64,000 nt of DNA, taken from assembly GCF_009498455.1 (NCBI RefSeq), contig NZ_CP045644.1, positions 4,405,001 to 4,469,000 on the forward strand, written 5' to 3'. Shown in pieces: positions 33,420 through 45,835 of this stretch. Source of the DNA: Variovorax paradoxus (GTDB lineage: Bacteria > Pseudomonadota > Gammaproteobacteria > Burkholderiales > Burkholderiaceae_C). Below the pieces are notes generated by a model that ran no database searches, was not told the origin of the DNA, and saw only the letters and a list, made by a program, of their open reading frames with translations. Position 1 is the first letter of the stretch, and every line of letters starts with the position of its first letter. The position numbers and the translations under genes are program-made.

Positions 33420-35588
33420 ATGAATCAGGCATCGCCGCCTTTGCGCGATCGCCCGGGCCTGCCGGGCCTTTCAGCGCTTTCGCTGGGGCTCGGTCTCGCA
33501 TGCGGGCCAGCCGTTGCCCAATCGGGTGAGGGTGACGCGGCGGGCCGCCCCAGCCTCGCGCCCGTGCAGATCGAGGCCAGCCGCCACACGCCGCTGGCCC
33601 TGGACGAGCCCACGCAAACGGGCAGCCGCCTGGGCCTCACGCCGCTCGAAACGCCCGCCAGCATCGAGGTGCTCACCGGCGACACCATCCGCGCACGTGG
33701 CGACGTGTCGGTGGTCGAGGCCGCGAGCCGCGCCACCGGCCTCACGGGCGCGCCGGCGCCGGGCAACGGCGGCTCGTCGCTGTCGGCACGCGGCTTCAAT
33801 GGCCATGGCTCGGTGATGCAGCTGTACGACGGCACGCGCCTGTACGTGGGCGCGGGCACCGTCACCTTTCCGTTCGACACCTGGTCGACCGACCGCATCG
33901 AGGTGCTGCGCGGCGCGGCTTCGGTGATGTTCGGCGAAGGCGCCATCGGCGGCGCGATCAACGTGGTGCCCAGGAAGCCCACGCGCGGCCCGATCCGCAA
34001 CGAAGCGCTCGTGACCGTGGGCTCCGACGCCACGCGCCAGGTCGCTTTCGGCAGCGGCGGGGCGGTCAACGACAGGCTGTCGTACCGCTTCGACATCAGC
34101 CACCGCACCACCGACGGCTTCATGGTGCGCGGCGAGGCCGAGAGCCTGGCCGTGGGCGGCGCGGTGCGGCTCGACGTGTCGCCGCAGCTGCAGTTCACGC
34201 TCTCGCACGACGAGGGCCGCCAGGCGCCGCAGCGCTATTTCGGCGTGCCGCTCATCAACGGCCGCCTGAGCCGCCTGAACCGCGAGCAGAACTACAACCT
34301 CGACGATGCCGAGGTGAAGTACCGCGACCGCTGGACCCGCCTCGACGCGCAGTGGACGCCCAACGACGCCGTCACCGTGCGCAACCAGCTCTACCGCCTG
34401 GACAGCAAGCGCCACTGGCGCGACAGCGAAACCTACACCTACAGCGCCGCCACGAACCGCGTGACGCGCGGCGACTACCTGGAGATCGGCCACGACCAGG
34501 AGCAGATCGGCAACCGCACCGACGCCACCTTCAAGCACGCGCTGTTCGGCCTGAAGAACCAGGTGCTGGTCGGCTTCGACGTGAACCGCATCGACTTCCT
34601 GAATGCGAGCGACACGCCCTACGGCGGGCGCTCGGTGGTCGACGCCTTCGTGTTCAACCCCGGCTCCTACGTGTCGCCCACGGCCTACCTGCCGCGCTAC
34701 AAAACGAAGACCCGCACCTACGCCTTCTTCGCCGAAGACAAGCTGGCCTTCAACGCGCAATGGTCGGCGGTCGGCAGCCTGCGCTGGGACCACGCGAAGA
34801 TCGTGCGCACCGATCCGCAGAACCGCGCCCCGCGCCTGGACAAGACGTTTGAATACGCCACCGGCCGCCTCGGCGTGGTCTACGCGCCCGACGCCGCGCA
34901 GTCGTTCTATGCGCAGGTGGCGCGCGCGGCCGATCCGCTCACCGGACTCATCAGCACATCGGCCACGCAGGTACCGTTCGAGCTCAGCACCGGCAGGCAG
35001 GTCGAGGTGGGCTACAAGCGCCAGCTGGCCGAAGGCCGCTGCGCCTGGAGCGTGGCCGCCTACCGCATCGAGAAGACCAAGCTGCTGTCGCGCGACGCGA
35101 GCGATCCGACGGTCGTGCAGCAGGTCGGCAAGCAATCGTCCGAAGGCATCGAAGCGACGCTCGACCTGGCGCTGAGCTCCACGCTGCGCCTCGAAGCCAA
35201 CGCCGCGCGGTTGCGAGCGCGCTATGACGACTTCAACGAAGCGGTCGGCAAGTCGCTGGTCTCGCGCGCGGGCAACACGCCGACCGGCGTGCCCGAGGTG
35301 GCGGCCAACCTGTGGCTGCACTGGCGCTTCCTGCCGCAGTGGGAGGCCGAGTTCGGCGTGCGCCACGTCGGCGCGCGGCAGGTCGATGCGGCCAACACGC
35401 GCCGGATCGGCTCGTACACCGTGGCCGACGCGGGCGTGAGCTGGCAGGCGAACCGGTCGCTCAAGCTCGCGCTGCGCGCCTTCAACCTCGCCGACCGCAA
35501 GTACCCGGTCTCGTTCTCGAACAGCGGCAACCAGTGGCTGCTGGGCCGGCCGCGTTCGTTCGAGCTGTCGGCGCTGGTGAGCTTCTGA
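33420..35588 (+). CDS. TonB-dependent outer-membrane receptor under cobalamin riboswitch control
   Basis: A 722-residue outer-membrane receptor. The signal peptide ends near PAVAQ (residue 34). A TonB-box-like APVQIEAS follows at about 47-54, then the plug domain to about residue 185 (TPLETPASIEVLTGDTIRAR, RGFNGHG, IEVLRGAASVMFGEGAIGGA) and the beta-barrel to the final ALVSF. The sequence looks more like a siderophore receptor (FhuE/FpvA branch) than like BtuB. The riboswitch and the following cobalt and B12 genes argue that it imports cobalamin, a corrinoid or a cobalt chelate. It lacks an STN signalling domain. Confidence 0.88.
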   Translation: MNQASPPLRDRPGLPGLSALSLGLGLACGPAVAQSGEGDAAGRPSLAPVQIEASRHTPLALDEPTQTGSRLGLTPLETPASIEVLTGDTIRARGDVSVVEAASRATGLTGAPAPGNGGSSLSARGFNGHGSVMQLYDGTRLYVGAGTVTFPFDTWSTDRIEVLRGAASVMFGEGAIGGAINVVPRKPTRGPIRNEALVTVGSDATRQVAFGSGGAVNDRLSYRFDISHRTTDGFMVRGEAESLAVGGAVRLDVSPQLQFTLSHDEGRQAPQRYFGVPLINGRLSRLNREQNYNLDDAEVKYRDRWTRLDAQWTPNDAVTVRNQLYRLDSKRHWRDSETYTYSAATNRVTRGDYLEIGHDQEQIGNRTDATFKHALFGLKNQVLVGFDVNRIDFLNASDTPYGGRSVVDAFVFNPGSYVSPTAYLPRYKTKTRTYAFFAEDKLAFNAQWSAVGSLRWDHAKIVRTDPQNRAPRLDKTFEYATGRLGVVYAPDAAQSFYAQVARAADPLTGLISTSATQVPFELSTGRQVEVGYKRQLAEGRCAWSVAAYRIEKTKLLSRDASDPTVVQQVGKQSSEGIEATLDLALSSTLRLEANAARLRARYDDFNEAVGKSLVSRAGNTPTGVPEVAANLWLHWRFLPQWEAEFGVRHVGARQVDAANTRRIGSYTVADAGVSWQANRSLKLALRAFNLADRKYPVSFSNSGNQWLLGRPRSFELSALVSF

Positions 35589-35683
35589 ATGCGCGGCCAT
35601 GAACCTATGACAAGGACTTGCGCAAGCCAGTCCCTCCCCCAACAATCAACTTTCGCACTTCGGTGCATTACAGGAGGTGCGTG

Positions 35684-36361
35684 ATGCACATCGAACCCGG
35701 TCTCGTCGACGGATCCAAGATCTTTCTCAGCTATGCCACGGGGGCGGCCGCGCTGGCCTATACCGGCAAAGTCGCGTTCGACACCTTGCGCAAGGACGGG
35801 CCCCTCGGCCTGGCGCTGCGCTCGGTCTTCACCGTGATGCTCGTGTTCTGCTTCTTCGAGCTGTTCCCGCACCATCCCGTGGGCGTGTCCGAGGTGCACC
35901 TGATCCTGGGCACCACGCTGATGCTCCTGTTCGGGCTCGCGCCCGCGGCCATTGGCCTGGCGGGCGGGTTGCTCATCCAGAGCCTGTTCTTCGCACCACC
36001 CGATCTGCCGCAGTACGGCATGAACGTCACGACCTTGCTCGTGCCGCTGTTCGCCACCGCCGCGCTGGCCCGCCGCATCATTCCCGCCCACATGGCCTAC
36101 GTGGACATCAGCTACCAGCAGGCCTTCAAGCTGTCGGTGGCCTACCAGGGCGGCATCGTGGTGTGGGTCGGCTTCTGGGCGCTCTACGGTCGCGGCACGG
36201 GGCTTGAGAACCTGAGCCAGATCGCCAGCTTCGGCGCGGCCTACATGACCGTCGTGCTGATCGAGCCGCTGGTCGACCTGGGCGTGCTGGCTGCGGCCAA
36301 GGCCTGGCGCCGCCTGCAGGGCACGGCCCTCGTCGAGCGCCGCCTGTACAGCGCCGTCTGA
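35684..36361 (+). CDS. cbiM: CbiM-like cobalt energy-coupling-factor transporter permease (lone S component)
   Basis: A 225-residue inner-membrane protein with about six helices. It starts MHIEPGLVDGSKI right behind AGGAGG; the N-terminal Met-His-Ile is a hallmark of CbiM/NikM, where His2 coordinates the metal. The upstream in-frame extension is therefore not coding. CbiM is the substrate-binding subunit of cobalt ECF transporters, usually with CbiN, CbiQ and CbiO, none of which follows here. Solo CbiM-like proteins occur and might work alone or share remote energy modules. Position between the riboswitch-controlled receptor and CobW supports cobalt uptake. Confidence 0.8.
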   Translation: MHIEPGLVDGSKIFLSYATGAAALAYTGKVAFDTLRKDGPLGLALRSVFTVMLVFCFFELFPHHPVGVSEVHLILGTTLMLLFGLAPAAIGLAGGLLIQSLFFAPPDLPQYGMNVTTLLVPLFATAALARRIIPAHMAYVDISYQQAFKLSVAYQGGIVVWVGFWALYGRGTGLENLSQIASFGAAYMTVVLIEPLVDLGVLAAAKAWRRLQGTALVERRLYSAV

Positions 36362-36442: not shown

Positions 36443-37519
36443 ATGACATCCAACAGCAACGCCAAGATCCCCGTCACCATCGTCACGGGCTTCCTCGGCA
36501 GCGGCAAGACCACGCTGCTGCGCCACATCCTCGGCAATGCCGAGGGCCGCCGCATCGCGGTGGTGGTCAACGAGTTCGGCGAACTCGGCATTGACGGCGA
36601 CATCCTGCGCGGGTGCGGCATCGGCTGCGAGGATGAGGACAGCGAAGGCAACGATCGCGAAGTCGCGCTGTACGAACTCGCCAACGGCTGCGTCTGCTGC
36701 ACCGTGCAGGAAGAGTTCCTGCCCGTGATGCTGCAGCTCGCCGAGCGCCGCGGCGACATCGACGCCGTGCTCATCGAGACCTCGGGCCTCGCATTGCCCA
36801 AGCCGCTGGTGCAGGCCTTCCAGTGGCCCGACATCGCGAACATCTTCACCGTCGATTCGGTGGTCACCGTGGTCGACGGCCCCGCTGCTGCCTCAGGTCA
36901 GTTCGCCGCGAACCCCGCGCAGGTCGACGTGCAGCGCCGCGCCGATCCCAACCTCGACCACGAGTCGCCGCTGCACGAGCTGTTCGAAGACCAGCTCTCG
37001 GCCGCCGACCTCGTGGTGCTCAACAAGACCGACCTCATGGACGCCGCCGCGCGCGCGCAGGTCGAGGCGCTGGTGCGCGAAGAGCTGCCGCCCGAAGTGA
37101 AGATCGTCGGCGCCACCGAAGGCAGGCTGCCGCTCGCGCTGCTGCTGGGCCAGGGCCGCGCCGCCGAGACCACCATCCACCTGCGCGAGAGCCACCACGA
37201 CCACGAGGAAGACCACGACCACGACGAGTTCGACTCGCTCGTGATCGAGCTGCCGCCCGTGGAACGCGACAGTCTCATCGCCGTGCTGGCCGCTTTGGTC
37301 GAACAACACACCATCTACCGCGTGAAGGGTTTCGTCGCCGTGCCGAACAAGCCGATGCGCCTGCTGGTGCAAGGCGTGGGCCGCCGCTTCGACCACCACT
37401 TCGACCGCCGCTGGCGCGACGGCGAGGCGCAGCGCACGCGCCTCGTGTTCATCGGCGAAGATCTCGACGAGGCCGCGCTGCGCAAGGCGCTCGAAGGCGT
37501 GGCCGCCGTGCCCGCCTGA
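36443..37519 (+). CDS. cobW: CobW family GTP-binding cobalt chaperone
   Basis: A 358-residue G3E-family GTPase. Walker A is GFLGSGKTT (residues 16-24), the metal-binding CxCC motif is CVCC (83-86), and the guanine motif NKTD is at 194-197. A histidine- and acid-rich stretch at about 250-262 (HHDHEEDHDHD) would bind metal. The C-terminal CobW domain follows. CobW loads cobalt for corrin-ring insertion in the aerobic cobalamin pathway. It lies directly before cobN, 7 nt away, so the pair is clearly one operon. Confidence 0.92.
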   Translation: MTSNSNAKIPVTIVTGFLGSGKTTLLRHILGNAEGRRIAVVVNEFGELGIDGDILRGCGIGCEDEDSEGNDREVALYELANGCVCCTVQEEFLPVMLQLAERRGDIDAVLIETSGLALPKPLVQAFQWPDIANIFTVDSVVTVVDGPAAASGQFAANPAQVDVQRRADPNLDHESPLHELFEDQLSAADLVVLNKTDLMDAAARAQVEALVREELPPEVKIVGATEGRLPLALLLGQGRAAETTIHLRESHHDHEEDHDHDEFDSLVIELPPVERDSLIAVLAALVEQHTIYRVKGFVAVPNKPMRLLVQGVGRRFDHHFDRRWRDGEAQRTRLVFIGEDLDEAALRKALEGVAAVPA

Positions 37520-37526
37520 TCAACGC

Positions 37527-40500
37527 ATGCACCTGCTGAGCACCCAGCCCGGACGCTTCGTCGAGGACGATCCGAGCGTCGTCACCCGGCTCGACCAGAC
37601 GCCGGGCGACATCGTGGTGCTCAGCTCGGCCGACACCACGCTCGCGCTGCTCGCGGCCGCGCGCACCGCGCTGGCGGCCACCGACCCCGGCTACCCCTCG
37701 CTGCGGCTGGCCAACCTCATGCACCTGCGCCAGCCTGCGTCGCTCGACCTGTACGTCGACGAGGTGTTGCGGCATGCGCGCGTGGTGGTGGTCGATCACC
37801 TGGGGGCCGAATCGGCCTGGGCCTATGGGTTGCAGCAACTCGAAAAACTCGCGAAGCGCCAGGGCCAGCAGCTCGCGATGTTCTCGGGCGACCTGCAGGA
37901 AGACGAAGACCTGCTCGCGCGCGGCACCGTGCCGCGCGGCGTGAGCCGGCAGCTCTGGCAGTACCTGCGCTCGGGGGGCGCGGGCAACGCGGCGCAGTTC
38001 CTGCGCGCGGTGGCCTTCCATGGCCTGGGCCATGGCGAGGCGCCGTTGCCGCCGCGCAGCCTGCCGCAGGTGGCGCTGCATGTGCCCGGTGGCATCGACG
38101 CGACGCACACGGTTGCGGGCATCGACGACCTGCGGGCCGGCTGGCATGCGAACGCGCCCGTGGTGGCGCTGGTGTTCTACCGCTCGCACCTGCTGTCGGG
38201 CAACACCGAGGCCTTCGACGCGCTGGCCGCCGCGCTGCATGCCGAAGGGCTGAACCCGCTGCCCGTGGCGCTCGATTCGCTCAAAGACCCGCTGTGCCTG
38301 TCTGCACTGCGCGCGTTGTGCATTGAGCACGACGTGCAGCTGGTGCTCAACACCACCGCCTTCGCTGCCTTGGGGCAGGGCGCTTCGGACGAGCACGGCG
38401 AGCCCATGGCGCTGGCCGGTGACGCGCCCGTGCTGCAGGTGATCGTGAGCGGCGGCAACCGCGAAGACTGGCTGGCTGACAGCCAGGGCCTGCGCCCGCG
38501 CGACATCGCGATGCAGATTGCCCTGCCCGAGATGGACGGGCGCATCGTCACGCGGGCCGTGAGCTTCAAGGGCCTGTCGCACCGCTGCGAACTCACGCAG
38601 ACCGAAGTGGTCGGCTACCGGCCCGAGCCCGACCGCATCGCCTTCGTGGCCGAGCTGGCGCGCCGCTGGTGCCGGCTGCGCAGCCTGCGCGCGGATGAGA
38701 AACGCGTCGCGCTGATCCTCGCCAACTACCCCGGCAGCGAAGGCCGCATCGGCAGCGGCGTGGGGCTGGACACGCCGGCCTCGGTGATGGCCATCCTGCG
38801 CACGATGCAGGCCGAGGGCTACATGCTCGACGCGCTGCCCGCGGACGGCGACGCGCTGATGCGCAGGCTGCAGGAGGGCATCGCCAACGATCCCGCCCAA
38901 TGGGCTGCACGGCCCGCGTGGCAGAGCTACGCGCTCGCCGACTACCGCGCCCGCCTCGCGGCGCTGCCCGAGGGCATGGCCGCTGCCATCGACGCGCAAT
39001 GGGGCCCGCCCGAAAACGATCCGATGCTGCGCCAGGGCCGTTTCATGATCGCCGGGCTGCGGCTGGGCCGCGTGTTCGTGGGCATCCAGCCGGCGCGTGC
39101 GCTCGGGCCACTGGGTCTGGCCGACTACGCGAGTTACCACGACGCCGAGCTGGTGCCGCCGCACAGCTACCTCGCGTTCTACTTCTGGCTGCGCGATGTG
39201 TTCGCCATCGACGCGGTGGTCCACGTCGGCAAGCACGGCAACCTCGAATGGCTGCCGGGCAAGAGCCTCGCGCTGTCGTCCACCTGCTGGCCCGACGCCA
39301 TCCTCGGGCCGCTGCCCAACGTCTATCCCTTCATCGTCAACGACCCCGGCGAGGGCGCGCAGGCCAAGCGCCGCACGCAGGCCGTGATCGTCGACCACCT
39401 GATGCCGCCGCTCACGCGCGCCGAGAACCACGGCCCGCTGCAGGACCTGGAGCGCCAGGTCGACGAGTACTACGACGCGCTGCTGGTCGACGCGCGCCGC
39501 GCCAAGGTGCTGCGCGCGCAGATCCTCGCGACCGTGCGCGCCCAGCACCTGGTCGAAGAGCTGGGCATGCCGGGCGCGGAAGACGATGTCGTGCTCGCAC
39601 GCGTCGATGCCTACCTGTGCGAGCTGAAAGAAACCCAGATCCGCGACGGCCTGCATGTGTTCGGCGACTCGCCGCGCGCGCGGCTGCGGCGCGACACGCT
39701 GCTCGCGCTCGCGCGCTACCCGGCCGGCGACGGCGCGGGCGAGAACGCCGGGCTGCTCGGCGCGCTCGCGGCCGACCTGTTGCCGGGCGAAGCCTTCGAC
39801 CCGCTCGACATCGACGCGGCGAAGCCCTGGCAGGGCGCGCGGCCCGCGCTGCTGGCGGCCGTGAGCGACGAGGCGTGGCGCCACCAGGGCGACACGCGCG
39901 AGCGGCTGGAGCTGCTGGCCCAGCAGCTGCTCGAAGCGGAAGCCTGTCCGCCCGATCTGCCGCGCACCGCTGCCGTGATGGGTCGCATCGAACGCCACCT
40001 CGCACCCGCGCTCGATGCGTGCGGCGGGGAAGAACTGCGTCAGCTGTCGCGTGCACTGCAAGGCCGCTTCGTGCCGCCGGGCCCGAGCGGATCGCCTTCG
40101 CGCGGTCGGCCCGACGTGTTGCCGACCGGGCGCAACTTCTACGCGGTCGACACGCGCGCCATCCCCACGCCCACGGCCTGGATGCTCGGGCTCAAGTCCG
40201 CCGCGCAACTGGTCGAACGCCATCTGCAGGAGCACGGCGACTACCCGGTCGCACTGGGCTTGTCGGTCTGGGGCACGGCCACCATGCGCACCGGCGGCGA
40301 CGATCTGGCGCAGGCCTTCGCGCTCATCGGCGTGCGCCCCAAGTGGGCACCGGGCAGCCAGCGCGTGGTCGATTTCGAGGTGCTGCCCACGGTCGGCATC
40401 GGGCGTCCGCGCATCGATGTCACGGTGCGCATCTCGGGCTTCTTCCGCGATGCCTTTCCCAATGCCGTGCAGATGTTCGACGCCGCCGTGCAGGCCGTGG

Positions 40501-41339
40501 CCGCGCAGGAAGACGAAGACGCCGAGCGCAACCCGATCCGCGCACGCATCCTGCGCGAGGCCGCGGCGCTCGAAGCGCAGGGCGTGGCGCCCGGCGAGGC
40601 GCGCACGCAGGCCGGCTGGCGCGTGTTCGGCTCCGCGCCCGGCAGCTACGGCTCGGGCCTGCAGCCGCTGTTCGACCACGGCGACTGGCAGACCGACGAC
40701 GACCTGTCGAAGGCCTACGTCGGCGGCAGCGCCCACGCCTACGGGCAGGGCAGCGACGGCGTGCCTGCGGGCGATGCGCTGGTGCGCCGACTGCGCACGA
40801 TGAACGTCGTGCTGCAGAACCAGGACAGCCGCGAGCACGACCTGCTCGACTCCAACGACTACTACCAGTTCCAGGGCGGCATGGCCGCCGCCGTGCGCCA
40901 CCTGAGCGGGCAGCAGCCGGCGATGTACCACGGCGACCACGGCAACCCGCAGGCGCCGCGCGTGCGCACGCTGAAGGAAGAAATCAGCCGCGTGATCCGT
41001 TCGCGCGTGGTCAACCCCAAGTGGATCGACGGCGTGAAGCGCCACGGCTACAAGGGCGCCTTCGAGATGGCTGCGACCGTCGATTACCTCTTCGGCTTCG
41101 ACGCCACCGCGCGCGTGGTGGGCGACCACCAGTACGCGATGGTGGCCGACGCCTACGTGCTCGACGAGGCCACCCGCGACTTCGTCAACACGCACAATCC
41201 GCGCGCGCTGCAGGACATGCTCAACCGCCTGCTCGAAGCCATGCAGCGCGGCCTCTGGCAGTCGCCCGGCGACTACAAGAACCAATTGGAAAACCTGCTG
41301 CTCGACCACGAGCAGCAGATGGAAGGAAGCCCCCGATGA
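37527..41339 (+). CDS. cobN: Cobaltochelatase large subunit CobN
   Basis: A 1270-residue CobN/BchH-type chelatase subunit, full length for CobN. It holds hydrogenobyrinic acid a,c-diamide and inserts cobalt with ATP hydrolysed by partner AAA+ subunits. Family landmarks include HVGKHGNLEWLPGKSLALS in the central domain, the preceding SYLAFYFWLRD, and near the C-terminus NDYYQFQGGMAAAVRHLSG and KGAFEMAATVDYLFGFDATA. The ATG lies 7 nt after cobW. Its TGA overlaps the ATG of the ChlI-like gene (ATGA), tying the subunits together in translation. CobS and CobT homologues are not in the window. Confidence 0.95.
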   Translation: MHLLSTQPGRFVEDDPSVVTRLDQTPGDIVVLSSADTTLALLAAARTALAATDPGYPSLRLANLMHLRQPASLDLYVDEVLRHARVVVVDHLGAESAWAYGLQQLEKLAKRQGQQLAMFSGDLQEDEDLLARGTVPRGVSRQLWQYLRSGGAGNAAQFLRAVAFHGLGHGEAPLPPRSLPQVALHVPGGIDATHTVAGIDDLRAGWHANAPVVALVFYRSHLLSGNTEAFDALAAALHAEGLNPLPVALDSLKDPLCLSALRALCIEHDVQLVLNTTAFAALGQGASDEHGEPMALAGDAPVLQVIVSGGNREDWLADSQGLRPRDIAMQIALPEMDGRIVTRAVSFKGLSHRCELTQTEVVGYRPEPDRIAFVAELARRWCRLRSLRADEKRVALILANYPGSEGRIGSGVGLDTPASVMAILRTMQAEGYMLDALPADGDALMRRLQEGIANDPAQWAARPAWQSYALADYRARLAALPEGMAAAIDAQWGPPENDPMLRQGRFMIAGLRLGRVFVGIQPARALGPLGLADYASYHDAELVPPHSYLAFYFWLRDVFAIDAVVHVGKHGNLEWLPGKSLALSSTCWPDAILGPLPNVYPFIVNDPGEGAQAKRRTQAVIVDHLMPPLTRAENHGPLQDLERQVDEYYDALLVDARRAKVLRAQILATVRAQHLVEELGMPGAEDDVVLARVDAYLCELKETQIRDGLHVFGDSPRARLRRDTLLALARYPAGDGAGENAGLLGALAADLLPGEAFDPLDIDAAKPWQGARPALLAAVSDEAWRHQGDTRERLELLAQQLLEAEACPPDLPRTAAVMGRIERHLAPALDACGGEELRQLSRALQGRFVPPGPSGSPSRGRPDVLPTGRNFYAVDTRAIPTPTAWMLGLKSAAQLVERHLQEHGDYPVALGLSVWGTATMRTGGDDLAQAFALIGVRPKWAPGSQRVVDFEVLPTVGIGRPRIDVTVRISGFFRDAFPNAVQMFDAAVQAVAAQEDEDAERNPIRARILREAAALEAQGVAPGEARTQAGWRVFGSAPGSYGSGLQPLFDHGDWQTDDDLSKAYVGGSAHAYGQGSDGVPAGDALVRRLRTMNVVLQNQDSREHDLLDSNDYYQFQGGMAAAVRHLSGQQPAMYHGDHGNPQAPRVRTLKEEISRVIRSRVVNPKWIDGVKRHGYKGAFEMAATVDYLFGFDATARVVGDHQYAMVADAYVLDEATRDFVNTHNPRALQDMLNRLLEAMQRGLWQSPGDYKNQLENLLLDHEQQMEGSPR

Positions 41340-42394
41340 CCACAGCCGCCCCGATGCCGGTGCCGTTCCCTTTTGCCGCGATTGCCGGCCAGCCGCAGCT
41401 GCGCCAGGCGCTGCTGCTGGCCGCGGTCGATCCCGCGCTGGGCGGCGTGCTCATCGAAGGCCCGCGCGGCACCGCCAAGACCACGGCCGCGCGCGCGCTG
41501 GCCGAGCTGCTGCCCGGCGCGCCCTTCGTCACGCTGCCGCTGGGCGCGAGCCTCGAAAGCCTCGTGGGCACGCTCGACCTCGGGCAGGCGCTGGCCGGCC
41601 ATGAACTCAAGTTTGCGCCGGGCCTGCTGGCGCGCGCGCACGGCGGCGTGCTGTACGTCGATGAGATCAACCTGCTGCCCGACGCGCTGATCGACTCGCT
41701 GCTCGATGCGGCGGCCAGCGGCGTCAACGTGGTGGAGCGCGACGGCATCTCGCACCGGCACGCCGCGCGCTTCGTGCTGGTCGGCACCATGAACCCGGAA
41801 GAGGGCACCTTGCGACCGCAGCTGCTCGACCGCTTCGGCCTGTGCGTGCGGCTGCGCAACCTGCAGGATGCGGCCGAGCGGCAGGCCATCGTGCGGGCGC
41901 GGTTGGCTTTCGATGCTGATCCGCAGGGCTTTCGCGCCGCACACGCGGATGAAGAGGCAGCGCTCGCCGCCGCGCTGGTGCGTGCGCGAAGTCTTGTGGC
42001 GGATGCAACGGCACTGTCGTATGGCGATGCCGTGCACGAAGCCGTCGGCGCGCTGTGCATCGCGGCCGGCGTGGACGGCCTGCGTGCCGACCTCGTGATG
42101 CTGCGCTCCGCGCGTGCGCTCGCGGCGTGGGAGGGCGCGGCATCGATCACTGATGACCATGTGCAGCGTGTCGCCGAGGCGGTGCTGCTGCACCGGCGCC
42201 ATCCGATGGCCGAAGCTGCGGCGGACCCCCCGGTGGCGTCGCCAGCTCCTCGTCATAACCCCAGTGACGCGCCCTCGCGCAATGCCGGCGACGGCGACTG
42301 GGGCGCCATGCCGCCCGAGCCCGTCGGCATCGAGCGCGTGAAGCCGCTGCGTCCGCTGATTTCCGCGCAGCAGGCCGCCCCAAAAAAAGCCTGA
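41336..42394 (+). CDS. chlD: ChlI-like AAA+ chelatase subunit (zero-frame product of a frameshifting chlD gene)
   Basis: This 352-residue product is the small-subunit-like form. Walker A is GPRGTAKTT (residues 42-50), Walker B is in GGVLYVDEINLLPD (about 102-115), and the sensor region is VGTMNPEEGTLRPQLLDRFGL, all as in BchI/ChlI. A Ser/Pro-rich linker ends at KPLRPLISAQQ before the stop. Known biology: many cobalamin producers have cobN plus a single chlD gene and no chlI, and a frameshift in chlD gives both subunits. Here the stop (42392-42394) comes right behind a run of seven A, and the -1 frame continues into a VWA domain. It overlaps cobN by 4 nt. Confidence 0.9.
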   Translation: MTTAAPMPVPFPFAAIAGQPQLRQALLLAAVDPALGGVLIEGPRGTAKTTAARALAELLPGAPFVTLPLGASLESLVGTLDLGQALAGHELKFAPGLLARAHGGVLYVDEINLLPDALIDSLLDAAASGVNVVERDGISHRHAARFVLVGTMNPEEGTLRPQLLDRFGLCVRLRNLQDAAERQAIVRARLAFDADPQGFRAAHADEEAALAAALVRARSLVADATALSYGDAVHEAVGALCIAAGVDGLRADLVMLRSARALAAWEGAASITDDHVQRVAEAVLLHRRHPMAEAAADPPVASPAPRHNPSDAPSRNAGDGDWGAMPPEPVGIERVKPLRPLISAQQAAPKKA

Positions 42395-42442
42395 GCCTCC
42401 GGGACGCCGCACCCGCTGGCGCACGCCAGGGTGACCGGAGGC
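42382..42442 (+). promoter_or_regulatory. Programmed -1 ribosomal frameshift signal (slippery heptamer, spacer, stem-loop)
   Basis: In the chlI-like frame the codons read CCA AAA AAA GCC TGA, so A AAA AAA (42382-42388) is a proper -1 slippery heptamer. A 6-nt spacer (42389-42394) contains the zero-frame stop TGA. A perfect 8-bp stem then pairs GCCTCCGG (42395-42402) with CCGGAGGC (42435-42442). Inside it, CTGGC (42416-42420) pairs with GCCAG (42425-42429). A weak Shine-Dalgarno-like AGCAGG lies 7 nt upstream of the heptamer. After slipping, translation continues AGC CTG AGC into the VWA domain. Confidence 0.85.
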
Positions 42443-43032
42443 AGGGCACGCAACGGGACGCATGGCACGGCGCCGCCGCGCCCGGCACCGCCTTCGACTG
42501 GCCACGCACGCTCGTCGCTCGCGGCGCCGACCAACTGCGCGCCGCGCACCTGCGCCATCGCCCGCAAGAGGGGCGCAGCGGCACGCTGCATTGCTTTCTG
42601 CTCGACTGCTCGGCTTCGATGCGCCACGACGGCCAGCTCGCGCGCGCCAAGGGCCAGCTGCTCGCGCTGATGCAGGAGGCCTACCAGTGGCGCGACCATG
42701 TGGCGCTGCTGTGCTTTGCCGGCGACGTGGTCGAGCTGCGCCTGCCGCCGCGCCGCGCGAGCGCCTGGAACGACGACTGGGTCGCGCCCATCGCGGCCGG
42801 CGGTGGCACGCCGTTGGCGCTGGGCGTGCAGCGCGCGCAGCAACTGCTGGCGAAGCACGAGACCCGCCAGCGCTGGCTCTGGCTGCTCACGGACGGCCGC
42901 AGCAACGAAAGCCCCGCGCGCCCCGCCGCCGCGGACGTCGCCTGCGTGATGGACTTCGAGCGCGCCCGCACGCCGCTGCACCGGGCGCGGCAGCTGGCGG
43001 CGCAGTGGGACGCGCGCTACTTCAGCGCCTGA
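42388..43032 (+). CDS. chlD: VWA domain of ChlD, reached by -1 frameshift (C-terminal part of medium chelatase subunit)
   Basis: This frame has no ATG, GTG or TTG before the VWA motif, yet the conserved domain starts well upstream of the first ATG (42619). The MIDAS motif DCSAS begins at codon 42604, followed by GGGTPLALGV and LLTDGRSNESP, as in ChlD/BchD and CobT. Joined at the slippery site, the full protein is 351 + 214 = 565 residues: AAA+ domain, proline-rich linker, VWA domain. This is a normal ChlD length. The medium subunit links the AAA+ ring to CobN. An alternative is initiation at the CTG at 42391, which overlaps the stop. Confidence 0.85.
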   Translation, partial: SLSLRDAAPAGARQGDRRQGTQRDAWHGAAAPGTAFDWPRTLVARGADQLRAAHLRHRPQEGRSGTLHCFLLDCSASMRHDGQLARAKGQLLALMQEAYQWRDHVALLCFAGDVVELRLPPRRASAWNDDWVAPIAAGGGTPLALGVQRAQQLLAKHETRQRWLWLLTDGRSNESPARPAAADVACVMDFERARTPLHRARQLAAQWDARYFSA

Positions 43033-44908: not shown

Positions 44909-45835
44909 TCAGTTGCGCGGTGCATCCAGCGACGCAAGGCAATTCACGATGGCATCGGCCGCCTCGTCGAGCCGCGGGCCGGGCCGCATCATCAGGTCGA
45001 AGCGCGCCGAGGCAAAGCTGCAGACGCGTCCGCGCTGGATGGCCGACATGGCCGACCAGCCGGGCCGCGCGGCCATCGCCGAGATTTCGCCGAGGGCCGA
45101 AACCATCAGCACGTCGGGGTTGGCGCGCACCACGAACTCGGGGTTCATCTTCGGGAAAGGGCCGAGCGAGCCCGGCACCGCGTTGGCCAGGCCCAGACGC
45201 GCCAGGGTCTCGCCGATGAAGGAGCTTTCGCTCGCAGCGGCGACGCCGCCATGCACCTCGAAGTACACGCGCCGGCCTTGCCAGTTCAGCGGCACGCGGG
45301 CGCGCGCTGCATTCAGCCGGGCATCGAGGGTGCGCCAGAAGGCCTCGCCCGTGCCCGGCTTGCCGGTGGCGCGGGCGACGGTTTCCATCACGCGGCGCAT
45401 GTCGGCATGGGTCTTGGCGTCGAGCGCCAGCACCTTGATGCCCAGGCGTTCCAGTGCTTCTGCGGCGCGGCTGCGCGGTCGCAGCAGCACGAGGTCGGGC
45501 CTGAGCGCGACGATGCGCTCGATGTTCGCGTCGTCCATGCCGCCCACTTGCGGCAGGCCCTTCACCGCCGCCGGCCAGTTGGCGTGGCGGTCGATGCCCA
45601 CGAGCCGGTCGCAGGCGTCGAGCGCGCAGACCGTTTCGGTGAGCGAGGGCATCAGCGAGACGATGCGTTTGGCGGGCGTCTGCAGCTCGAGCACGCGGCC
45701 GCGGTCGTCTTCCAGGCGGATGGTGCCCGCGTGCGCCGCCGGGCCCAGGCCCAGTGCCACGAAGGCCGCGGCCCGGGCGATGTGGCGGGCGGCGGTTGAA
45801 AAGGGTTGGCGCAGGGGCAGGGCGTGGGAAGTCAT
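44909..45835 (-). CDS. btuF: BtuF-like cobalamin ABC transporter binding protein
   Basis: A 308-residue periplasmic binding protein of the class III (PF01497) type. The signal peptide ends about residue 36 (AAHAG). The mature part has RIVSLMPSLTETVCALDACD, VGIDRHANWP, LPQVGGMDDANIERIVALRPD and SFIGETLARLG. The SLxPSxTE pattern is typical of BtuF rather than of ferric-siderophore binders. Its BtuCD partners are not next to it, so it must work with distant genes. It fits the cobalamin theme of the operon 2 kb away but is on the other strand and has no riboswitch. Confidence 0.82.
   Translation of the reverse strand: MTSHALPLRQPFSTAARHIARAAAFVALGLGPAAHAGTIRLEDDRGRVLELQTPAKRIVSLMPSLTETVCALDACDRLVGIDRHANWPAAVKGLPQVGGMDDANIERIVALRPDLVLLRPRSRAAEALERLGIKVLALDAKTHADMRRVMETVARATGKPGTGEAFWRTLDARLNAARARVPLNWQGRRVYFEVHGGVAAASESSFIGETLARLGLANAVPGSLGPFPKMNPEFVVRANPDVLMVSALGEISAMAARPGWSAMSAIQRGRVCSFASARFDLMMRPGPRLDEAADAIVNCLASLDAPRN

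Follow-up and report, generated by a model that had tools for sequence, protein, structure and literature searches.

Frameshifted chlD genes, abbreviated here to fs-chlD, are reportedly the subject of a 2020 paper in MBE by Antonov and co-workers. The principle is familiar from dnaX, where an A-rich heptamer and a downstream stem bring about a -1 frameshift and thereby a short and a long AAA+ protein are produced from one gene. For chlD the strategy has been published (PMC3711429, PMC9227772, PMC5009743). According to the text of PMC3711429, chelatase genes with signals of the A_AAA_AAA type gave efficiencies of 63, 40 and 10% in reporters for 11, 9 and 7 A respectively, the 10% of the A7 cassette having been obtained in Escherichia coli. 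The precedent that the initial annotation of the present locus had invoked is therefore real. Such genes, linked with cobN, are on record for Pseudomonas, Burkholderia and Delftia as well as other bacteria (PMC3711429, PMC9227772); they are also described in species that have neither the B12 and chlorophyll pathways nor a large subunit (PMC9227772).

In the CobNST cobaltochelatase, the large subunit CobN works with an AAA+ motor and a VWA adaptor, and cobalt is supplied by CobW (PMC7689651). The BchD/ChlD ring is described in the same source as being without ATPase activity. C. metallidurans is described as having an operon whose products convert cobyrinic acid to adenosylcobalamin (PMC2864759). 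Variovorax is not named in the main text of PMC3711429, nor in the portions of PMC9227772 that were covered, and our literature search found no paper on Variovorax with cobN or with B12 synthesis or auxotrophy. The texts available from that search likewise held no description of an operon of cobN and fs-chlD in genomes without ring synthesis.

Here we analyse a 64-kb stretch of DNA, called the window throughout, from a Variovorax paradoxus genome that consists of a single contig of 7.29 Mb. The initial annotation had proposed that a gene beside cobN uses a programmed -1 frameshift to make a short ChlI-like and a long ChlD-like product, and the comparative data below support this proposal. Judged from its sequence, the gene is very probably an fs-chlD, whose AAA+ and ChlD-like products would arise via a programmed -1 slip.

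Locus sets

The genus was surveyed by searching 100 genomes with the fs-chlD DNA. For conservation beyond the genus we selected 121 loci, namely 42 genus loci and 79 of the 82 wider loci (named loci and order-level loci) whose VWA match falls in the -1 frame. The total includes four or more duplicates, because the records of L104-L107 and of four genus genomes are identical. Two BchI-like loci that lack an A run, with identity of about one half in the AAA+ part, were dropped by hand (L086 and L092; with both included the heptamer count given below becomes 121/123), as was one whose first frame is broken (L121). Also left out were L019 (A6), L109 (a single-frame fusion), L102 and L130, which has a run of N in the -1 frame and in which the A7, TGA and stem are present. 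The same applies to the BchI-like loci L085, L087 and L096, in which the two parts share a frame phase, and to L081, L083, L091, L094, L103 and L113, which have no VWA match. Fifteen order-level loci lie outside the count, 13 of them about 48-53% identical. The other two of the fifteen, L075 and L076, were read by eye and have the A7, GCC, TGA and a complementary stem.

Results

The gene belongs to a run on the forward strand. A cobalamin riboswitch (RF00174; 33001-33289, +; 86.6 bits, gathering threshold 31.5) is located upstream of a TonB-dependent receptor (33420-35588, +; TIGR01783 251.3 bits, cut-off 223.5; PF00593 and PF07715), a CbiM-like cobalt-uptake membrane protein (35618-36361, +; PF01891 53.0 bits, cut-off 23.1), the cobalt chaperone GTPase CobW (36443-37519, +; TIGR02475 499.3 bits, cut-off 332.1) and the large cobaltochelatase subunit CobN (37527-41339, +; TIGR02257 1545.5 bits, cut-off 822.05). 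The fs-chlD gene follows directly downstream of cobN, the stop codon of which overlaps the fs-chlD start. The riboswitch is found upstream on the same strand in the window and in 16/16 other loci of the same clade that were tested (17/17; this clade is defined below as clade 1).

Some variation around the run is worth recording. A gene for a BtuF-like periplasmic binding protein (44909-45835, -; PF01497) lies near the run on the opposite strand. Just 29 bases separate the genes for the TonB receptor and the CbiM-like protein in the window (35588-35618), and in L185, L187, L189 and L192 a long membrane-protein frame lies between them; the inserted frame of L185 (6966-8504, -), the one tested, is PepSY_TM by Pfam. 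In L186 and L188 the riboswitch is immediately 5′ of the CbiM-like gene, and a search of these two loci detected no relative of the window's TonB receptor. Three of the clade-1 loci tested for the riboswitch (L195-L197) have it some 6 kb away from cobW, and other reading frames occupy the interval.

The zero frame of fs-chlD (41336-42394, +) encodes a ChlI-like AAA+ protein of 352 amino acids. It scores 372.5 bits against TIGR02442, a putative cobaltochelatase family, and 305.8 bits against TIGR02030 (BchI/ChlI), both below the full-length cut-offs; it is over the cut-off for PF01078 (Mg_chelatase) and PF17863 (AAA_lid_2) and matches the BchI structure 1g8p (E 2.4e-77). We take GPRGTAKT, at about 41459-41482, to be its Walker A motif, and VLYVDE, at about 41648-41665, is presumably Walker B. 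The -1 frame (42388-43032, +) holds a linker and the VWA domain that had been claimed for it, with the MIDAS motif DCSAS at 42604-42618; this 214-residue part matches PF13519, PF00092 and the VWA domain of the BchD structure 2x31 (E 6.2e-12). A fused, ChlD-like product was computed at 565 amino acids, AAA+ first and linker and VWA after it, in agreement with the size and order first given. The initial annotation had also stressed that no ATG, GTG or TTG precedes the MIDAS in the -1 frame. This is true of the window from the slip site onwards. It is not a general feature, since only 12 of the 121 loci, the window among them, are startless in this sense; the other 109 have an ATG, GTG or TTG before the MIDAS, and a missing start is consequently no general argument.

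At the junction the zero frame reads CCA AAA AAA GCC TGA. The slippery heptamer A AAA AAA (42382-42388, +) is in zero-frame phase and is followed by a 6-nt spacer, GCCTGA (42389-42394, +), which contains the zero-frame stop TGA (42392-42394), 3 nt from the heptamer. Directly behind the stop, the arms GCCTCCGG (42395-42402, +) and CCGGAGGC (42435-42442, +), located by folding and by comparison of pairing, are perfectly complementary over 8 bp. They enclose a nested hairpin found by folding (42405-42433, +), in which 42405-42408 pairs with 42430-42433 and 42416-42420 with 42425-42429. Reading and folding thus bear out both of the original descriptions, that the AAA+ frame ends just after an in-phase A AAA AAA and that the spacer and perfect stem with its nested hairpin follow. 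At -37.1 kcal/mol the fold of 42389-42450 is more stable than the average of shuffled sequences, -27.2 (z -2.90), and 1 of 200 shuffles folds as well or better. The A7 is the sole run of at least seven A on the forward strand of the 64 kb, which is 68% GC; there is one T7 run.

Within the genus, a close copy (clade 1) is present in 36/100 genomes and a more diverged copy (clade 2, L042-L048) in 7/100, the latter about 60% identical to the window in the AAA+ part and about 40% in the VWA part. A ChlI-like match occurs on its own, with no VWA match, in four further genus loci (L049-L052). In 42/43 loci, both clades included, the zero-frame stop comes 10 bases after the first A of the A7. L019, from a draft genome, departs from this with an A6 and a broken phase that may be an error or a real loss. 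Synonymous conservation across 35 clade-1 loci (L019 left out) peaks at the signal, on which all of the top 12 of 549 17-codon windows lie. Both frames are under purifying selection, with median dN/dS values of 0.20 and 0.22 (561 pairs each) among 34 clade-1 loci from genomes in which no CobH or CobJ was found. There is little covariation in clade 1: of five measures, four are higher than in any of 500 shuffles, and the remaining one is attained in 13 of them. Both two-sided changes in the clade sit in the inner hairpin, one of whose five pairs, with the columns as set, forms in just 1 of 34 rows; two-sided changes were sought in the outer stem, which hardly varies, and none were seen.

The initial annotation suggested a comparison of A7, spacer and stem across related genomes as a check, and we carried this out on the wider set. 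An X XXY YYZ heptamer in the correct phase is present in 121/121 loci, most often AAAAAAA (108 loci), otherwise AAAAAAG (10), AAAAAAC (1) or CCCAAAG (2). Further upstream in the same genes, in-phase slippery heptamers occur at 17 of 33,880 codon positions. The distance from heptamer to stop is 3 nt in 118/121 loci, 6 nt in two and 24 nt in one. A complete stem of eight pairs can form in 84 of the 116 distinct regions behind the stop, and the 5′ arm occurs in 42 different sequences; arms swapped between loci give 2.5% and shuffled sequences 3.6%, where shuffling keeps base content only. At least seven of eight pairs are possible in 107/116, against 38% swapped and 34% shuffled, which is weak evidence by itself.

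Individual loci depart from the common layout. Comamonas odontotermitis (L127) keeps the in-phase A7 at 24 rather than 3 nt from the zero-frame stop. Two Tepidimonas loci (L177 and L178) have C CCA AAG in place of A AAA AAA, with 7/8 stem pairs after the stop. Acidovorax sp. SUPP3334 (L109), whose genome has CbiC, encodes AAA+ and VWA parts as a single-frame fusion with no A7 or signal; the frameshift arrangement is therefore not indispensable everywhere, and this locus is a natural control for loss when the short product is absent.

The gene keeps close company with cobN. Across the genus, cobN exceeds its family cut-off in 44/100 genomes and 43 of these have fs-chlD, the 44th (G010) having a 3′ fragment of it at a contig end. 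No full fs-chlD was found in the 56 genus genomes without cobN over the cut-off; one of them (G079) has a 3′ piece, again at a contig end. A CobS-like gene occurs in 49/100 genus genomes, 27 with cobN and 22 without, and its association with cobN is weak (27/44; Fisher p 0.04; 100 genomes). These counts indicate that it is fs-chlD, and not the CobS-like gene, that tracks cobN. The genome of the window has a CobS/CobT-like pair at 5.917-5.920 Mb (L068:4250-7022, -), away from cobN; the CobS-like protein scores 530.7 bits against a cut-off of 558.55, and the CobT-like protein is also below its family cut-off. The CobS-like gene may have a client other than CobN. A second, longer CobN homologue, over the cut-off for NF004644, is encoded at 5.597-5.602 Mb (L069:5361-9719, -); it lies in a late B12 cluster beside DUF2149, BluB, CobO and CbiB.

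Neither of the two known routes to the corrin ring can do without CobH/CbiC, and CobB makes the usual substrate of CobN. In the complete genome of the window there is no CobH/CbiC match at E 1e-20 or better, the threshold for all CobH/CbiC matches listed here. At this threshold the enzyme is present in 14/100 genus genomes: 7/7 of clade 2, where fs-chlD lies about 1.3-1.8 kb from cobH/cbiC, 1/36 of clade 1 (G066) and six without cobN. CobJ/CbiH was searched for in 65 chosen genomes, including 12 of the 15 wider genomes without CbiC, and exceeds its curated cut-off in 15 of the 65, just one of them among the 36 of clade 1; the best match in the window's genome reaches 39.4 bits against a cut-off of 246.35. 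In total, 35/36 clade-1 genomes have neither CobH/CbiC nor CobJ/CbiH at the thresholds used, four of the 36 being drafts of 86-96% completeness. Of 85 candidate genomes, the wider search for CbiC covered 53, made up of that of L109 and 52 in which the gene has the frameshift layout, and found it in 38. The 15 with fs-chlD and no CbiC include Cupriavidus, Polaromonas, Duganella, Comamonas and some metagenome-assembled genomes of unknown completeness.

A second cluster near 5.596-5.611 Mb of the window's genome has a cobalamin riboswitch of its own. It contains a TonB receptor nearest to BtuB (below the cut-off), CobB (NF002204 410 bits, cut-off 254; TIGR00379 259.4 bits, just below 261.4), a CobU-type kinase (over the cut-off for PF02283 and slightly under it for NF004469), a putative BtuF/C/D ABC transporter identified by reading its sequence alone, and CobO, BluB, DUF2149, the second CobN homologue and CbiB. 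On the strength of CobH/CbiC and CobJ/CbiH, this genome apparently does not make the corrin ring, but it seems equipped for at least some of the steps that follow (hydrogeno)byrinic acid.

Discussion

We propose the following model for fs-chlD. Most ribosomes would halt at the TGA at 42392 and release the 352-residue ChlI-like AAA+ subunit. On A AAA AAA, the tandem lysine tRNAs of some ribosomes would re-pair one base back, aided by the stem 6 nt downstream, and these ribosomes would go on to make the 565-residue ChlD-like subunit, which joins the AAA+ module of the short form to the linker and VWA domain. A ribosomal -1 slip on tandem lysine codons would explain the heptamer, its phase, the nearby stop and the stem alike. 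The two products, with their common AAA+ sequence, could then form a two-tier motor working with the CobN encoded just upstream, with cobalt coming from CobW and the whole run controlled by the cobalamin riboswitch. The sole guide to the efficiency of the frameshift predicted here is the 10% of the A7 cassette in E. coli, and this value, as given in PMC3711429, fits a 1:1 motor badly unless the native efficiency is higher.

Other explanations for the two frames have to be considered. RNA polymerase might add a base within the A7, and some mRNA molecules would then encode the fusion without any ribosomal slip; the A7 is after all a homopolymer, kept as such in 108/121 loci. Slippage of this kind needs neither a stem nor a fixed spacing, however, whereas pairing is kept across 42 arm sequences and the stop lies at a nearly constant 3 nt. 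In 13 loci, moreover, the site is A6G, A6C or C CCA AAG, which obeys the rule for tandem tRNAs and not one for homopolymers. The near-fixed gap, the stems maintained across different arms and the heptamer variants together sharpen the mechanism in favour of ribosomal over transcriptional slipping, and we consider the latter very unlikely. Separate proteins are less probable still. Ribosomes would in this case terminate and re-initiate at the codon overlapping the stop, CTG 42391 in the window, or slightly later, producing a lone VWA protein. The frequent starts ahead of the MIDAS would permit this, and the overlapping codon is ATG or GTG in nine loci (four of the seven of clade 2, three Hydrogenophaga, one Lampropedia and one Burkholderiales MAG). 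But that codon is CTG in 106/121 loci and a non-start CTA or TTA in six, so a start at the stop codon, which the initial annotation had named as a possible refutation, is not conserved and re-initiation is disfavoured. It would conserve neither heptamer nor stem, and in the window there is no conventional start to use. A Shine-Dalgarno-like stretch precedes the slip site in 7/7 clade-2 loci, an energy that 69% of base-content shuffles reach; for 75 further loci, named or order-level, the figure is 28%, against 16% shuffled; in clade 1 the energies are no better than shuffled (5.7% against 11.3%). In clade 2, with ATG or GTG at the stop in 4/7 loci and purine-rich sequence before the A7, some translational coupling may exist in addition to the slip. 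As a candidate stimulator of frameshifting the Shine-Dalgarno-like stretch was rejected, there being no enrichment in clade 1, mostly base composition in clade 2 and a modest excess elsewhere. Finally, homopolymers are error-prone and the ring-forming B12 genes were not found, which would make decay plausible, and a sequencing error in the A7 had been foreseen as fatal to the proposal. The A7 is not such an error, because 42/43 genus loci have it at the same place; purifying selection on both frames in genomes with no CobH or CobJ found, and a riboswitch upstream in every clade-1 locus tested, speak against a pseudogene. An erroneous or decaying gene is, in our estimation, scarcely credible.

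The role of the enzyme is a separate matter. That it is a cobaltochelatase, as first claimed, agrees with the presence of cobN and cobW; that it is the cobaltochelatase of B12 synthesis cannot be assumed, because neither CobH nor CobJ was found and a CobS/CobT-like pair is encoded elsewhere. An ordinary, complete aerobic pathway would accord with cobN, cobW, the CbiM-like gene and the riboswitch standing in one gene run, with CobB, CobO, CbiB, a CobU-like protein and BluB elsewhere in the genome, and with the proximity of fs-chlD to cobH/cbiC in clade 2. Against it stands the failure to find CobH/CbiC or CobJ/CbiH at our thresholds in the window's own genome or in 35/36 genomes of clade 1, and we think it unlikely. 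Since CobH and CobJ were not found, yet CobB and later B12 genes are present, the leading idea is that cobalt is inserted into a corrin ring of outside origin, and we infer that the substrate of the chelatase would be either an externally derived ring or a different tetrapyrrole. A more specific version is offered tentatively, as a conjecture that we would not back strongly: the clade may keep only the late half of the aerobic pathway and, when B12 is short, put cobalt into neighbours' metal-free corrins or some other scavenged tetrapyrrole. The corrins that we have in mind are, just as speculatively, hydrogenobyrinic acid or its a,c-diamide. If true, this would be corrinoid salvage upstream of cobalt insertion. 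There is in any case a conserved and selected cobaltochelatase under a B12 riboswitch in genomes seemingly unable to make its usual substrate, and the locus offers a direct and cheap test of whether bacteria trade metal-free corrins.

Comparison with known systems

The Variovorax locus is an addition to the published family of frameshifted chlD genes, as far as that family is set out in PMC3711429 and PMC9227772, and the full locus set adds a large and well-conserved group of examples to this known type of recoding. It resembles the published genes in having a ChlI-like zero frame, a VWA domain in the -1 frame, an A-rich slip site and a downstream structure. It differs in its setting: the gene run is headed by a riboswitch and encodes a TonB receptor and a CbiM-like protein, and the surrounding genomes are ones where no CobH or CobJ was found.

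CobNST and the present system have CobN, an AAA+ motor, a VWA adaptor and CobW in common. In CobNST, however, the small and medium subunits CobS and CobT come from separate genes, whereas here they would be of the ChlI/ChlD type and come from one. By sequence, the closest solved structures of the two parts are those of Mg-chelatase BchI and BchD (1g8p and 2x31), which are encoded by separate genes and have BchH as their partner; here there is one gene and the partner is CobN. Whereas the BchD/ChlD ring is reportedly without ATPase activity, the long and short forms here are identical in AAA+ sequence. The likeness to dnaX lies in the heptamer and stem and in the two AAA+ proteins encoded by one gene. 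In contrast to dnaX, the long form of fs-chlD gains a VWA domain, and clade 1 has no enriched Shine-Dalgarno-like stimulator.
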